This document shows, in pieces, positions 57,003-64,000 of a stretch of DNA of 64,000 nucleotides. Positions within the stretch are counted from its first letter, which is position 1; each line of letters begins with the position of its first letter. The notes under the pieces are model-generated. The model saw nothing but the letters and a program-made list of their open reading frames with translations, made no database searches and was not told where the DNA came from. Source of the stretch: Planctomycetota bacterium (GTDB taxonomy: Bacteria; Planctomycetota; Phycisphaerae; Phycisphaerales; SM1A02); assembly GCA_009926625.1 (NCBI GenBank), contig RFON01000001.1, forward strand, positions 62,001 to 126,000. The letters run 5' to 3'. Position numbers and translations under genes: made by a program.

Positions 57003-57150
57003 GGCGGATTGATGCTCGTGGCGGGGAAGCCCTTTGACGATACATCAGGGCGGTGGTCTGACTGACGCAACCCCTTCGCAATCGGGCGGCGCGAGCGAAG
57101 AATTCTCCAGTGCGAGTTGCACTGCGCGCCGCTGCGTTTACCATTTTTGC

Positions 57151-58185
57151 ATGGGACAGACACAGTCTCGTTGGTCTTGCATCGGTGGAGCAGCGATGGT
57201 CTTTACGGCAGTTTCCTGCGCCAATGCTGGCTCGGCGTGCCGCAGTGATCTCGTCGTGGACGGTGCAACGAATGGACTCGATCTGACGGCGCTCCTTGGT
57301 GCGTGGTCCACCGATGGCGGTTCGAGCGGCTGCGACATCGACGGCGACGGTGTTGTGGGCGGTTCCGACCTCACGATCCTGCTCGGTGCATGGGGAGACT
57401 GCCCAACGAATCCACTGCCATGGGCTGAAGTCCTGCAGTGGAATCCGCCAGCATCCATCGTGACGGATCCTGCCATCCGAAGTGCAGTGCGCTCGCTTGA
57501 TCTTCCATGGTTGGTGCGTGACTGGTATGCCCAGGTGGAACTTGTCCTCGTGCCTCCAGGTTCCTTCCAAATGGGGCGAAGTCTCGGCGACACGGAGGGC
57601 TACTCATCCGAGTTGCCGCGACACTGGGTGATTTTGACTGCGGGCTTCTACATCGGGCGAACCGAAGTCACGCAGGAGCAGTGGTTGCGGGTGATGCCAT
57701 TCAATCCAAGCCAATCGGCGAATGACCCCGATGCAGCAGGGCGCCCAGTCGAAAATGTCTCGTGGAATCTCTGCGAGCAGTTCTGCCTCGCAACAGGGAT
57801 GCGTTTCCCCACCGAGGCCGAGTGGGAGTACGCGTGCCGAGCGGGCACCACGAGTTCGCGCTACGGACCGCTTCTCGAGATTGCTTGGTGCTTCGACAAT
57901 GCATGGCAGGCGACGCGCTCTGTCGGTCTGAAGGCTCCGAATGCCTTCGGTCTTCATGACACCATTGGCAATGTCTACGAATGGGTGCAGGATTGGTACA
58001 CGCCGTTCACTGCGGATGCAGTCACCGACCCCACGGGGGCGGTTGACGGTGTGGAAAAGGTGATGCGCGGGGGATCGCACGGCTCGGGATCGGAGAAGTG
58101 TCGGGCTTCGCGCCGTGGAACAAACGCCCCTGCGAGTGCGAGCCCTGTCCTCGGGTTCCGCATCGCCCGCGCGGCGGTTCCTTGA
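57151..58185 (+). CDS. Secreted SUMF1-like protein with N-terminal dockerin-like repeats (first copy)
   Basis: 344 residues from the ATG at 57151. A signal peptide (about 1-27) is followed by two dockerin-like loops (VVDGATNGLDLTALLGAWS, DIDGDGVVGGSDLTILLGAWG) and, from about 120, a formylglycine-generating-enzyme-like (SUMF1) domain: LVLVPPGSFQMGRS, FYIGRTEVTQEQWLRVM, RPVENVSWNLCEQFC, RFPTEAEWEYACRAGT, GNVYEWVQDWY and KVMRGGSHG...KCRASRR. The Cys pair of true formylglycine-generating enzymes after the RGGS motif is not seen, so a binding or C-type-lectin-like role is more likely. First of two tandem paralogues, divergent from the FlgI-like gene. Confidence 0.85.
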   Translation: MGQTQSRWSCIGGAAMVFTAVSCANAGSACRSDLVVDGATNGLDLTALLGAWSTDGGSSGCDIDGDGVVGGSDLTILLGAWGDCPTNPLPWAEVLQWNPPASIVTDPAIRSAVRSLDLPWLVRDWYAQVELVLVPPGSFQMGRSLGDTEGYSSELPRHWVILTAGFYIGRTEVTQEQWLRVMPFNPSQSANDPDAAGRPVENVSWNLCEQFCLATGMRFPTEAEWEYACRAGTTSSRYGPLLEIAWCFDNAWQATRSVGLKAPNAFGLHDTIGNVYEWVQDWYTPFTADAVTDPTGAVDGVEKVMRGGSHGSGSEKCRASRRGTNAPASASPVLGFRIARAAVP

Positions 58186-58271: not shown

Positions 58272-59375
58272 ATGATCCCAATGTCGACTTATCGTGGCTT
58301 CTCGTCTCTCCGATCCGTGGTTGCGGTGTTTGGCTCCGCGGTCGGGCTCGTATGCACCCCTGTGCTCGCAGACTGCCCTGGAGATGTGAACGGCGACAAT
58401 GCGGTCTCGGGCACCGATCTCAGTGTGGTGCTGTCCGCTTGGGGCAGCGACGGACAGGGGCAGTTCGATGCCGACCTGAACAACGATGGAACCGTCAACG
58501 GATCCGATCTCACTTTGGTTCTCGGCAGTTGGGGAACCTGCATCACCGTTCCCGAGTGGGGAACGCTCATCGAGGCGGCACCAGACCCATCCGTGATCTA
58601 CGACCCAGCGATCCGACAGGCGATCTTGGAAAGCGGATTCGCTTGGCGAGTGCGCGACAATGCGACACAGATGGAAATGTTGCTTGTTCCAGGTGGCAGT
58701 TTCATGATGGGATGCCCAACCGCGAGCGGCTGCTATGCGGACGAGTACCCACTTCATTCGGTGACCATCAGCAGCAGCTTCTACATGGGCCGATTTGAAG
58801 TCACCCAGGCTCAGTGGATCGCGCAGATGAACTACAACCCGAGCTACTTCCAGGCACCGCAGTTTCCAGGCTCGATGGATCGCCCAGTCGACTGGGTTTC
58901 TTGGAACAACATCCAAGGGTTCATGAACGCCACGGGGATGATGTTGCCGACGGAGGCCCAGTGGGAGTATGCGGCGCGAGCGGGAACCACGACCACCTAT
59001 CACGGCACCGCAGCACAGCCCGAGGGCTCCGATGATCCAGCAATCTTGCCGAGCATTGCTTGGTACAACACCGTTCCAGGCGACGCGTTCTATGGAACTC
59101 AGGTTGGCGGCGGCAAACTGGCCAACGGCTTTGGTCTCCACGACATGACGGGAAATGTGTGGGAGTGGGTGCGCGACCGTTACGCGGCCGACTATTACTC
59201 GTATAGCCCCGTGATCGATCCTGCTGGACCCTCTACTGGTGGATACCGACCAATCCGAGGTGGTGGCTGCGGCTACGACGCCGATTCATGCCGCATCTCC
59301 GCACGCGGCGAGGGCCCCACATCCTTCGCGCACGGCATGATCGGGTTCCGCGCGATCCGCCCGAACGACAGCTGA
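58272..59375 (+). CDS. Secreted SUMF1-like protein with N-terminal dockerin-like repeats (second copy)
   Basis: 367 residues; an ATG at 58281 (MSTYRG) could also start it. Signal peptide to about residue 34, then two dockerin-like loops (GDVNGDNAVSGTDLS, ADLNNDGTVNGSDLT) and a SUMF1-like domain with MLLVPGGSFMMGC, FYMGRFEVTQAQW, RPVDWVSWNNIQGF, LPTEAQWEYAARAGT, GNVWEWVRDRY and RPIRGGGCG...SCRISARG. Here too the formylglycine Cys pair is not evident. Domain order and motifs match the upstream copy, so they are tandem duplicates that have diverged. 86 bases separate them. Confidence 0.87.
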   Translation: MIPMSTYRGFSSLRSVVAVFGSAVGLVCTPVLADCPGDVNGDNAVSGTDLSVVLSAWGSDGQGQFDADLNNDGTVNGSDLTLVLGSWGTCITVPEWGTLIEAAPDPSVIYDPAIRQAILESGFAWRVRDNATQMEMLLVPGGSFMMGCPTASGCYADEYPLHSVTISSSFYMGRFEVTQAQWIAQMNYNPSYFQAPQFPGSMDRPVDWVSWNNIQGFMNATGMMLPTEAQWEYAARAGTTTTYHGTAAQPEGSDDPAILPSIAWYNTVPGDAFYGTQVGGGKLANGFGLHDMTGNVWEWVRDRYAADYYSYSPVIDPAGPSTGGYRPIRGGGCGYDADSCRISARGEGPTSFAHGMIGFRAIRPNDS

Positions 59376-59411: not shown

Positions 59412-59485
59412 TGGGCGCTACAGGATTCGAACCTGTGACCCCTGCCATGTAAGGGCAGTGCTCTAGCCAGCTGAGCTAAGCGCCC
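59412..59485 (-). tRNA. tRNA-Val (anticodon TAC)
   Basis: 74 bases. The acceptor stem GGGCGCT/AGCGCCC is perfect, the anticodon stem-loop is CTGCC-CTTACAT-GGCAG, and the T arm is ACAGGTTCGAATCCTGT. The discriminator is A; CCA is not encoded. Confidence 0.96.
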
Positions 59486-59530: not shown

Positions 59531-62500
59531 TCACGCCCCTGGCGCGTCCGGCATGATCAGGTCCGCCAAGACGGTTCGAAGTGCCTGCGCCATTTCCGCG
59601 GCAACTCCGTAGCGGTCGGCGGGGCGCTTGGCGAGCGCACGCAGACACACGCGCTCAAGCGATTCGGGAATGGTCGGCACGAGCGCACGCGGCGCGGGAG
59701 GTTCCGCATGAATCACCTGCTCGAGGACTTCCTTGCGCGACCCACCGACGAAGGGTCGCCGCCCAGTGATGAGCGTGTAGAGCACCGCACCGAGTCCGAA
59801 GATGTCCGCACGCCCATCGACCGTCGCGGACTCGCCGCGCGCCTGCTCGGGTGACATGAACGCGGGCGTTCCGGCAAGCGCTGCACCGCCGGCGGCATCC
59901 GCGGTCGACAGCACGAGACCGAAGTCCGCGATCAATGCGCGCCCATCCGCATCCATCAACAGGTTGCTCGGCTTGACATCGCGGTGGACGAGCCCCCTCC
60001 GGTGCGCCGCGTGCAGCGCATCAGCCACCGATGCCACGATCGCCACGGCCTCGCGAAGCGGCAGTCGCTTCGTCTTCGTCAAGGTCTCGAGGTCAGACCC
60101 GCTGATGAACTTGCAAACGACAAAGCAGGGGTGTTCAACCGACGAGCCGACGTCGTACACGGGCACGACCCCTGGATGATCGAGCGCCGCCGCGGCGCGC
60201 GCCTCGCGGAGGAAATCCTGGACTTGACGCTCGGTCGACACCATGGTGCGACGCGGCACCTTGACGGCGACATGTCGTTGCAACTGGTCGTCGAACGCGA
60301 GGAACACGCTGCCGTAGCTGCCCGACCCGAGCAGCCGTTCCACCCTGTAGCGACCGACCTTCTTCGGCACCTCCACATCGTCGGCCCCCGACCCTGACTG
60401 CCCCGAAGAGGATCCACTCCCCGCACTCGGCTGCACTTCGGCACTCGTGGCATCGACCGACGACGAGCCGGGTGGAACCAGCTCGGCGCGCGTCGGTGCG
60501 AGGGATCGGGCTGCCGACGGGATCGACTGCGAAAGCGCCACCTTCGAGAGCCACGATCCTGTCGGGAACGCGTAGGGGCGGAACTTTTCGTGCGAGCCGG
60601 CATCCTCCTGATGCAACAGCGCGCGCTGCGGACCGAGTTTGCTTGCAGCGGGGGAGTCAATCAGCGTGCTCGAGTCCGTGGCGCTCACTTGGAAGAGCGC
60701 CCGCCAGGAGAACTCCCGCAGCGCGTTTCGATCGACCGAGCGCGCCAAGTTTGTTGCGCTGTCGACTGTCACGAGCACATGAACCCCCACGGTTGGACCG
60801 TCGCGGAGAATCTCCGCAAGCAGCTTGTCGCCGCTGACGGCCGCGGAACCACTCGAACCAAACCCATAATCGTCTTCGTTTCGACGCAGCGAGCGGAAGC
60901 GGTGCAGTCCATGGATGACGAGCAGGATGGTCTCCAGCCTCGACTCACCCGTTGCGGCACGGCGGCGCACTTCCTCGGCAACATGCATCAAGAGCGCGTC
61001 CGCCTCGCGGATTCCTCCACTGTCGCCGCGCAGTCCCAGCTCGCGGCGCAGTCCAGCAAGCTTGTCGCATGCCGCGTCATCCACGGGCGTTCCGTCAAGC
61101 AGAACGACCCGCGCATCCGATCCACACTGCGCCGCCACCGAGACCAAGGCCGCGGCGGCAACGCCAGCGGATGCGTCTTCGCGCTGTCCAACAACCAACA
61201 TGTTGCTTCCCGACTGTCGGCGCAGCGGAACCGATGTCGGCTCTTGGATGGCTACGGCATCGCCAAGCCACAGCCGCGGCGCGAGCAGCACTTCGTTGCC
61301 TCGCCGATTCGCCGCCTGCAGCAGCAGGGCATTCGCCTCGAGCAAGGCGGGAGCGCTCCCCTCGAAAACGATCATGGGCGGGCGCGGGGCGCAGGGGTGT
61401 GACTGCTCGAGCGCGCGCACATCATCGAGGAGGCGGTCACGGTCGGCATCCGCAAGCCACACGACTTGGAAAGGGTTGTTCCCCTCCACGAGACCGCCGG
61501 CATCGTTGTAGATGGCTTCGCCGGGGCGGGACAACAAGCGAGCCGCGACATTGTCGTCCGCGAGGATCAACTGTGAATCGGCTTCGTTGCACTGCAAAGC
61601 GATTCGTACACCCATCTGCCCCATCGTTGCCCGTGCAATCGAGTACGCACCGCCGAGCGTCTGCGAGCCGAGCACCACATGGATCCCGAATGCGCGTCCT
61701 TGCCTGACGAGTCGGTCCAACAGCAGACCCGACTCCTCGGACACCTTGTCGTCTTCCGTGAACAGTTCTTGGAACTCATCGACAATCAGAAGTGTCCGCG
61801 GCATCCGCTCGGTCGGACGCAGGCGCCGGAATCCAGCGAGGTCTTGGACGCCGACGGCACGGAACAGGTCACCGCGCGTGCGCAACTCCGTGTCGAGCCC
61901 ACGAAGCACGGACAGTCCAAACTCCCGGTCACTCTCGACGGCGACCACACGCGCGTGCGGCAGCCCGTGGGCCGCGTAGGTGCGGAACTCGACACCCTTC
62001 TTGAAATCGATGAGCCACACATCTGCCTGATCGGGCGAGAAGCGCAGCGCAAGATTGGTGATCAACGCATGCAGCAGGGTTGACTTGCCCGAACCCGTCT
62101 TGCCGGCAATCAGCGCGTGCTGGCTTGTCCCCACGCCCAGAACCAGCGATTGCAGGCGCGTTGCGCCAGACCGGCCCAGCGGAACGGTGATCGAGTCGTC
62201 GGTTGTCTCGGACCAAAGCCTCCCTGGTGTCGGCGCGATGACCGCGAATGGCACCTCGACGCGCTTCGCGCGCTTGGCCGACGCCGCAATGCGCTTCAGC
62301 AGCGCCGTGGCTCGGTCGTTGGAAGGGGGCGATCTCGCCGTGAACGGAAAGGGCTCGAGCGGTGTCCCTACGACGGAAAACCGTTCGGACTTCCACACGA
62401 GGTTGAGCGCGCGCGCTCGCAGTTCGCGCATGTCCAAGTCACTTGGAACGGACTGCCGCGTGTCGCGCAGGAGGAGCGTGAACACGCCACACCGTGCGCC

Positions 62501-64000
62501 ACTGGTGATCACGCTGTTGAGACGCCGGATCGCAGCCTCGCTCAGCCCCGCCGGAAAGTCCGCCATCACGAGAAATCGATAGGGCTCCGCGATCTCCCCC
62601 GCCTGTCGGTTGTACGCCGCGAGGTCCGCATACTCGTTTCGCAGGAACTTCTGTATGACCGTTTCCATGTGCTCGCAGAGATCGGTCAGTCGCTGCTCCA
62701 TCTGGCGCTGTTCAGTCCAGATGCGCTCGCCCACCAAGTGCTCCGCTTCATCGCTGAGGTGCATGAACGCTGCGAAGCTCTCGCCAAGCCCCACAGGATC
62801 GAAGATGGTGAATCGCGCCTTGCCCGGCGGCAGCATCGTAAGCAGCCGCAGCATGGCCTCCTGCAGCAGCGCAACGCCAGCCTCGCGACCCTCCATCCCC
62901 GCCTCGAGAAGCAGCGATGCCTGCGTCGGAATGGAAAGCGTCACGGGGACATGCATGATCCGCGGAGTGCCCGCAGGCCACGCGAGGTCCGGGGAGACAG
63001 GCAGGGCTCCCTTGACGCCACTCAGCGGGATGGTGATGTGTCCGAGGCTGACCGCACTTCGGGGTTCCGAAGCGCCATCAAAGCGCTCCCACGATGGATC
63101 GCTCCAAGGAAGGAACTGGCGTCGTTCGATTTCGCCGAGCCGTTGGAGGTCTCGAACCACCTGCCCCTGCGCAGTGTGCCAGTCGTTCCGCAGCGCAGTA
63201 CGACGCGCCTCCACCACGGCGCTGATTTCCCGCGCGCGTGTGGTGTGGCGATCCACCTCACGCCCGAGCGTCATCGCATGCCGCGCATCGACTTGTGCCC
63301 GAGCATCTTGGACCGACTTGGCTAAGTTCGACTTGATCTGCGCCAACTGCCCATCGTTCTTGGCGCGCAGCTCAGCCGCGGCTGCCTGCACCCGCTCGAG
63401 GCGGTGCGGCAATTGCGCCTGCAGGGCCGCGCGTCGCTCCGCCAGGGCACTTCGCACGCTCGCGACTTCCTGTTGATGGCGCAGTGAAGCAGCCTCGGTC
63501 AACCGCTCCCGCGTGTCATCGCTCCATCGCAGGGTCGCAGCAAGCAGCTGCTTCAGGCGCTCGCCTCGGTCCGCCACCGCCTGTGCGGTACCGCGCAGTG
63601 AACGACCCGCTGAGAAGAAGATAGCCCCCTGCAAGAGCGCAGAAAGCGCCAGCGCACCGATCACGATGAGTGGTCCAGTCATCTCTGCCCAGCCGACCGT
63701 CAGGGAGACAGCGCCGGCGGACAGCAGCACCACAAGGAGCAGGCACGCCGCGTGGGCAATCTTGTTCCGCAGGATCAGGGCGAACGACATGCGTCGGACA
63801 CTCACGAAGAGTTCGTCCGCGACGGATGCCTCGGCGGCGAACGCCGCCATGGGGTCGGCACCGAGCGCCGGCGAGGATCCATCTGCGTTCTCCGTTGGCA
63901 TCACCAGCGCGCGCCCAAGGAGGTCGCGAGCTCGCATCAGTGTTTCATGTGCACCGTCAAACATCGATTGGAGTTGCTGCTTTCGCTCCTGATGCTCCTT
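59531..64000 (-). CDS. FtsK/SpoIIIE-type ATPase fused to a C-terminal Hanks-type Ser/Thr kinase (5' end outside the window)
   Basis: At least 1477 residues from an ATG at 63964, but the frame stays open to the window edge (KEHQERKQQLQS before that Met), so the protein is probably longer. Two helices (about residues 70-115) are followed by a coiled coil (about 120-270). Then comes an FtsK/SpoIIIE motor with Walker A IAGKTGSGKSTLLHAL (about 622-637), WLIDFKKGVEF, and Walker B TLLIVDEFQELF (about 725). A second ATPase-like domain (about 860-1140) has a degenerate P-loop (VVGQREDASAGV). After a Gly-Ser linker, a complete kinase (about 1205-1460) shows GSGSYGSV, HVAVKV, HRDVKPSNLLMD, DFGLV and GTPAFMSPEQA. 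The tandem motor layout recalls EssC/EccC of type VII secretion. Confidence 0.88.
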   Translation of the reverse strand, partial: KEHQERKQQLQSMFDGAHETLMRARDLLGRALVMPTENADGSSPALGADPMAAFAAEASVADELFVSVRRMSFALILRNKIAHAACLLLVVLLSAGAVSLTVGWAEMTGPLIVIGALALSALLQGAIFFSAGRSLRGTAQAVADRGERLKQLLAATLRWSDDTRERLTEAASLRHQQEVASVRSALAERRAALQAQLPHRLERVQAAAAELRAKNDGQLAQIKSNLAKSVQDARAQVDARHAMTLGREVDRHTTRAREISAVVEARRTALRNDWHTAQGQVVRDLQRLGEIERRQFLPWSDPSWERFDGASEPRSAVSLGHITIPLSGVKGALPVSPDLAWPAGTPRIMHVPVTLSIPTQASLLLEAGMEGREAGVALLQEAMLRLLTMLPPGKARFTIFDPVGLGESFAAFMHLSDEAEHLVGERIWTEQRQMEQRLTDLCEHMETVIQKFLRNEYADLAAYNRQAGEIAEPYRFLVMADFPAGLSEAAIRRLNSVITSGARCGVFTLLLRDTRQSVPSDLDMRELRARALNLVWKSERFSVVGTPLEPFPFTARSPPSNDRATALLKRIAASAKRAKRVEVPFAVIAPTPGRLWSETTDDSITVPLGRSGATRLQSLVLGVGTSQHALIAGKTGSGKSTLLHALITNLALRFSPDQADVWLIDFKKGVEFRTYAAHGLPHARVVAVESDREFGLSVLRGLDTELRTRGDLFRAVGVQDLAGFRRLRPTERMPRTLLIVDEFQELFTEDDKVSEESGLLLDRLVRQGRAFGIHVVLGSQTLGGAYSIARATMGQMGVRIALQCNEADSQLILADDNVAARLLSRPGEAIYNDAGGLVEGNNPFQVVWLADADRDRLLDDVRALEQSHPCAPRPPMIVFEGSAPALLEANALLLQAANRRGNEVLLAPRLWLGDAVAIQEPTSVPLRRQSGSNMLVVGQREDASAGVAAAALVSVAAQCGSDARVVLLDGTPVDDAACDKLAGLRRELGLRGDSGGIREADALLMHVAEEVRRRAATGESRLETILLVIHGLHRFRSLRRNEDDYGFGSSGSAAVSGDKLLAEILRDGPTVGVHVLVTVDSATNLARSVDRNALREFSWRALFQVSATDSSTLIDSPAASKLGPQRALLHQEDAGSHEKFRPYAFPTGSWLSKVALSQSIPSAARSLAPTRAELVPPGSSSVDATSAEVQPSAGSGSSSGQSGSGADDVEVPKKVGRYRVERLLGSGSYGSVFLAFDDQLQRHVAVKVPRRTMVSTERQVQDFLREARAAAALDHPGVVPVYDVGSSVEHPCFVVCKFISGSDLETLTKTKRLPLREAVAIVASVADALHAAHRRGLVHRDVKPSNLLMDADGRALIADFGLVLSTADAAGGAALAGTPAFMSPEQARGESATVDGRADIFGLGAVLYTLITGRRPFVGGSRKEVLEQVIHAEPPAPRALVPTIPESLERVCLRALAKRPADRYGVAAEMAQALRTVLADLIMPDAPGA

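Follow-up and report, generated by a model that had tools for sequence, protein, structure and literature searches.

In the EccC motors of type VII secretion systems (T7SS) the first ATPase core is active and the later ones are degenerate. These machines are repeatedly accompanied by kinases, pseudokinases and FHA domains, and the EssB/YukC protein of T7SSb is a separate pseudokinase. For Gram-positive bacteria, the part of Garrett et al. 2024 (PMC11217815) used here presents T7SS subtypes that have separate kinases, phosphatases and FHA proteins. A description nearer to the present locus stands in a table footnote (Zhang et al. 2012, PMC3482391, Table 1 footnote 6), which records for planctomycetes and some other phyla a solo WXG accompanied by a YueA-like ATPase with three FtsK domains, of which the middle one alone is active, and calls these systems mobile. 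This footnote was the only mention of the planctomycete WXG100-motor group that we found in the open-access literature, and our literature search turned up no planctomycete in which export by this system has been reported.

Here we describe a gene at the edge of a 64,000-nucleotide stretch of planctomycete DNA (the window, bases 62001-126000 of a 237,882-base contig; coordinates past its end continue the window numbering). Its product is probably the motor component of a minimal, type VII-like export apparatus of the Planctomycetota, and one small clade has a Hanks kinase added to that motor.

A motor and a kinase share one reading frame

The frame is open from position 59531 to the window edge at 64000 and runs on uninterrupted for a further 441 bases to a GTG start codon at 64441 (minus strand), which overlaps the TGA of the preceding gene; with this extension the product has 1636 amino acids, not 1477. 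The original prediction had placed an FtsK/SpoIIIE ATPase, membrane helices, a coiled coil and a Hanks kinase in a single frame that leaves the window. The start has now been located beyond that edge and all of these elements are present, as judged by Pfam, hydropathy and sequence motifs and, for the coiled coils, by eye (Table 1). The chain contains charged, coiled-coil-like sequence (again by eye) on both sides of the hydrophobic segments at residues 220-279, which form two membrane helices, followed by three FtsK-like ATPase cores, a Ser/Gly linker and the kinase. In Pfam, both FtsK_SpoIIIE (E 2e-27) and Pkinase (E 7e-40) were matched. The codon pattern of the linker is coding-like (GC3 0.77), and third-position GC stays steady from the motor through the linker into the kinase.

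Table 1. Features of the motor-kinase locus, in window numbering.
Feature	Position	Strand	Details
WXG100 gene	65265-65537, past window	-	90 aa; upstream in motor operon; PF06013
Helical-hairpin gene	64662-65255, past window	-	197 aa; same operon
Small WXG100-like gene	64438-64665, past window	-	75 aa; same operon
Motor-kinase gene	59531..64000 within window, on to 64441	-	single frame; 1636 aa
Two adjacent membrane helices	63605..63784	-	residues 220-279; hydropathy
Charged coiled-coil-like stretch, membrane to ATPase cores	63152..63604	-	residues 280-430; by-eye sequence reading
First RecA-like core, degenerate, no P-loop	62252..62959	-	residues 495-730; AlphaFold2 model
Second RecA-like core, FtsK/SpoIIIE ATPase, motifs intact	61400..62191	-	residues 751-1014; PF01580 and model
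Walker A, GKTGSGKS	62081..62104	-	motif in middle core
Walker B, LLIVDEFQE	61766..61792	-	D and E nearly invariant in motor alignment A1
Third RecA-like core, degenerate	60557..61363	-	residues 1027-1295; model; homologues end here
Ser/Gly/Pro-rich linker, motor to kinase	60356..60541	-	residues 1301-1362
Hanks-type Ser/Thr kinase, complete, PknB-like	59600..60349	-	residues 1365-1614; Pfam, profiles, motifs
Kinase catalytic loop, HRDVKPSN	59963..59986	-	sequence motif
Kinase DFG motif	59918..59926	-	sequence motif
tRNA-Val (UAC)	59412..59485	-	downstream neighbour of motor in congeners read

The motor contains three RecA-like cores and resembles EccC and EssC

An AlphaFold2 model of residues 440-1636, computed from an alignment of this motor with 53 others from different genomes, is confident for residues 440-1305. 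This confident region holds three RecA-like cores, with Walker A and B motifs in the middle core only: seven of the eight Walker A positions are identical across all 54 aligned motors, the eighth being K or R, and the P-loop is absent from the first and third cores across the family. The end of the third core marks the limit of the region common to all relatives. The two-ATPase tandem proposed originally was right in that an intact and a degenerate core are present, but the cores number three; the segment singled out as a possible second core, residues 860-1140 (about 1019-1299 in the full protein), adopts a degenerate RecA-like fold in the model. Beyond the motor, the kinase part of the model has low confidence because the relatives lack a kinase, and the identity of this domain therefore rests on its sequence.

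Against secretion-family profiles the motor scores 108.5 (EccCa), 107.8 (EccCb) and 89.7 bits (EssC), compared with 41.2 bits for chromosomal FtsK. The three secretion scores stay below the curated NCBIfam cut-offs (509, 347 and 778 bits, respectively), as do those of the kinase-free related motors. A profile of the motor family built on alignment A1 found its best match in EccC (4nh0, E 9e-39), with ESX-5 EccC5 and YukB also matched, and the solved structure ranked first by Foldseek was the cytoplasmic part of EccC (4nh0, E 6e-32), followed by EccC/EssC ATPases 2 and 3. VIA-align superposed the tandem ATPases 2 and 3 of EccC/EssC with Z 28.5-28.8 and an rmsd of 6.6-6.7 over 489-500 residues, while the active core alone reached its highest Z on FtsK with DNA (31.4, rmsd 2.3, 272 residues). 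By sequence, then, the match is to EccC core 1, whereas the model superposes on EccC/EssC cores 2 and 3 and the active core is the middle one.

The proposed likeness to EssC/EccC is thus supported by the profiles, by the fold (4nh0) and by a WXG100 gene upstream. The alternative raised alongside it, a conventional chromosome-segregation FtsK, is contradicted by a score of 41 bits against an FtsK equivalog cut-off of 1566 and by the genome's ordinary FtsK, a separate gene on contig C29 (PF01580 208.7 bits versus 86.4 for the motor-kinase).

A conserved four-gene operon with WXG100 partners

The operon runs in the order WXG100, helical hairpin, small WXG100-like and motor, the last three genes being joined by stop/start codon overlaps. 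The WXG100 protein matches PF06013 with 38.1 bits (Pfam cut-off 27.3), and its gene is the only one found above that cut-off in the genome. In its homologues the hallmark position mostly reads WRDQ instead of WXG and the C-terminus ends in RKAxRIEEYLQQR; a C-terminal YxxxD/E signal was found in none of 60 WXG100 homologues and in 3 of 64 small proteins. The 75-residue protein shows a weak WXG100 likeness in Pfam and a convincing one by family profiles (39 of 40 matches). The 197-residue protein is predicted to form a single long helical hairpin and has no informative PDB match; its candidacy as a further WXG100 relative was rejected, as iterated searches drifted and an hhalign profile comparison gave 4.8%.

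The expectation that upstream genes might reveal the rest of the system was borne out by this three-gene set. As for the partners suggested in that direction, the WXG100 gene is there, but no FHA or phosphatase genes were found in the operon, and two FHA genes lie on other contigs of the genome. Searches for YukD and YukC/EssB gave no match at E 1 in this 91%-complete genome.

The motor is present in 153 of the 181 family genomes; across the phylum, about 60 of the 392 genomes sampled have it with a match at E 1e-60 or better. The kinase-free operon also occurs in a culturable relative, Singulisphaera acidiphila (L093). We counted operons in the planctomycete loci fetched plus the window's own, keeping those in which 2.5 kb or more of sequence precedes the motor (n=64): small genes precede the motor in 57 of these loci, and all three occur in the same order in 49. 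No further conserved neighbour gene was seen in the loci compared. The WXG100 trio is missing upstream of the motor in seven loci (L067, L070, L071, L082, L090, L098 and L105), two of which (L070 and L071) have a topoisomerase I-like gene directly 5' of the motor.

These observations describe a minimal four-gene operon that resembles a type VII secretion system and is conserved across Planctomycetota. Among the features tested, the ATPase is of the FtsK/SpoIIIE type, anchored in the membrane and built from several RecA cores in a row, a WXG100 protein is encoded with the ATPase (here and in the 57 loci), and the combination given by Zhang et al. 2012, three FtsK cores with the middle one active plus a WXG gene, is found as well. 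On present evidence, the system would work like a type VII system, but by these features it is neither T7SSa nor T7SSb.

The kinase is an inherited addition to the motor

All canonical kinase motifs are kept in the C-terminal domain: the G-loop, VAVK, HRDVKPSN, DFG and SPEQ (APE-like). A fused kinase was found in none of more than 200 other related motors, and across the phylum over 100 motor loci besides this one lack it; in the 153 motor-bearing family genomes, all listed matches stop by residue 1349 save that of the present genome. The search of planctomycete genomes for this domain order accordingly returned motor plus kinase here only, and the idea that the two constitute one system does not hold, as the motor is kinase-free in all other relatives examined and the copy in a sister species is broken.

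In the five congeners scanned, tRNA-Val follows the motor, and here the kinase sits between them. The motor tree unites this species with its two nearest congeners, G400 and G406, in one fully supported clade without resolving the branching order within it. In G406 (motor 82% identical) a clean stop is followed by the tRNA, with no kinase. In G400 (motor 80% identical) the stop is followed, before tRNA-Val, by two correctly ordered pieces of the kinase, which are 79% and 75% identical to the fused kinase in DNA and have lost the N-lobe and catalytic loop to deletion. Motor and fragments are about equally diverged, so the kinase, fused or separate, predates the parting of the two species; G400 has lost the linker. 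Across two in-frame blocks, 25 of 38 differences between the G400 fragments and the fused kinase are third-position changes, which points to past selection on the protein, and it follows that the kinase was probably under selection for much of that time. As judged from these sequence comparisons, the kinase is a real, inherited addition and not part of the core machine, and the best reading is that one subclade acquired it at the C-terminus of the motor and that some of its members have since lost it.

Among the 181 family genomes, the nearest relative of the fused kinase shares 60% identity with it and makes up the N-terminal part of a 1525-residue protein of a related genus, which continues with an nSTAND1 NTPase and an FGE-sulfatase-like end (L177:5485-10059). 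The ten other kinases detected in the present genome are at most 40% identical to it. Because of this difference, we derive the fused kinase, by sequence identity, from a lineage of kinases in the wider family rather than from a recent duplication in this genome.

Several side observations concern the same genes. The related genus encodes two kinase-nSTAND1-FGE proteins of more than 1500 residues (L177:5485-10059 and L178:2501-7117), which are possible signalling or conflict proteins. In the window, two FGE-sulfatase-like genes (57034-58185 and 58272-59375, plus strand), one with a dockerin, lie between tRNA-Val and a FlgI-like gene, and the protein whose kinase is closest to the fused one also has this FGE domain at its end. 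Relatives of these genes occur in the two sister species, and most of the congeners read outside the clade have motor, tRNA and FlgI-like gene in direct succession. In two loci a separate kinase gene lies 450-550 bases downstream of the motor (L089:11716-13158 and L097:11534-13045), perhaps by chance and perhaps as a second association. A general linkage of kinases to motors was considered and rejected: separate kinases lie within 8 kb of some motors, but their positions are scattered and kinases are common, and the pattern looks like chance.

Discussion

By analogy with EccC/EssC, the motor would form a membrane-anchored ring in which the middle core would hydrolyse ATP and the other cores would bind partners, with the WXG100 hairpin proteins as the likely cargo through the motor, or its gate. 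The kinase would be an accessory addition to a core machine that works without it. Tethered past the last core by a flexible linker of 60 residues, it could reach the motor subunits, their partners and the Ser-rich linker, and would phosphorylate the motor, the linker or the WXG100 partners, so adjusting transport. Such tuning would be optional, because the core machine lacks a kinase elsewhere and a sister species has lost it. It is a tentative but serious proposal that, in this Gram-negative phylum, a type VII-like motor bears an active kinase of its own and so unites in one chain transport and phosphorylation of the machine or its WXG100 cargo; we found no report of a fused kinase on such a motor in the open-access literature.

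It is somewhat doubtful that the kinase is instead a passenger, whose gene landed between motor and tRNA-Val, has no role in the motor and is being lost. Its occurrence in one species, its breakage in G400 and absence from G406, the ten other kinases of the genome and the retention of a kinase-free motor everywhere else would all fit, but the frame is intact through motor, flexible linker and kinase, every catalytic motif is kept and differences from the G400 remnant fall preferentially on third codon positions. For the operon as a whole, a non-secretion membrane translocase or scaffold that handles other cargo (e.g., DNA or envelope material), with the WXG100-like hairpins as adaptors, is unlikely. 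YukD, YukC and the YxxxD/E signal were not found, the top structural score of the active core is FtsK with DNA (Z 31.4), and conservation is housekeeping-like with fixed synteny; however, EccC/EssC is preferred to FtsK both by the profiles and when all three cores are compared together, the pairing with WXG100 proteins is conserved and a normal FtsK is present elsewhere in the genome. It is very improbable that the locus serves anti-phage defence as a module that pairs a kinase with an FtsK-like ATPase (MADS Mad6 and Mad8), as the PADLOC profile matches (mad6 E 2e-59, mad8 E 2e-23) represent general kinase and ATPase similarity, and the operon is stable, nearly universal in the family rather than patchy, and has no further conserved neighbour. 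Finally, although the fusion is seen in one genome only, an assembly join or frameshift that glued a separate kinase gene onto the motor, named originally as what would undo the prediction, deserves next to no credence, because G400, assembled independently, retains pieces of this kinase in the corresponding position, and the frame and codon pattern run unbroken through the linker.

We therefore retain the reading of a minimal type VII-like export motor with a joined kinase. The four-gene WXG100-motor operon, nearly universal in one planctomycete family and spread through the phylum, is a candidate for an export system in Gram-negative bacteria, with no known substrate or outer-membrane route, and the same-chain kinase together with the kinase-free sister species offers a natural test of how phosphorylation affects such a motor.

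The closest solved structures to the motor by sequence profile are those of T7SSa EccC and T7SSb EssC/YukB, with which it shares several FtsK-like cores in a row after the membrane helices and a WXG100 gene in the operon. It differs from them in missing the curated cut-off of each of the three families, apparently in having a degenerate first and an active second core, in the absence of FHA domains, in an operon context where YukD/YukC were not found and in the kinase that follows its last core. EssB/YukC likewise places a kinase fold beside the EssC motor, but here the kinase motifs are intact and lie on the same chain. T7SSc and T7SSd (TscD, TsdD; the part of PMC11217815 used here) also link an active-looking Ser/Thr kinase to a WXG100-EssC-type machine; those kinases are separate and Gram-positive, and we found no motor-fused kinase in that part of Garrett et al. 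2024. The Pkinase-nSTAND1-FGE protein (L177:5485-10059) has the most similar kinase domain found, yet lacks both a motor and a WXG100 operon. The group of PMC3482391 agrees with the present system in phylum, solo WXG100 partner and three FtsK-like cores with a catalytic middle one, but no kinase is mentioned there, and the systems called mobile in that account are here syntenic and nearly universal in the family; to that description the present analysis adds the helical-hairpin and small WXG100-like genes.
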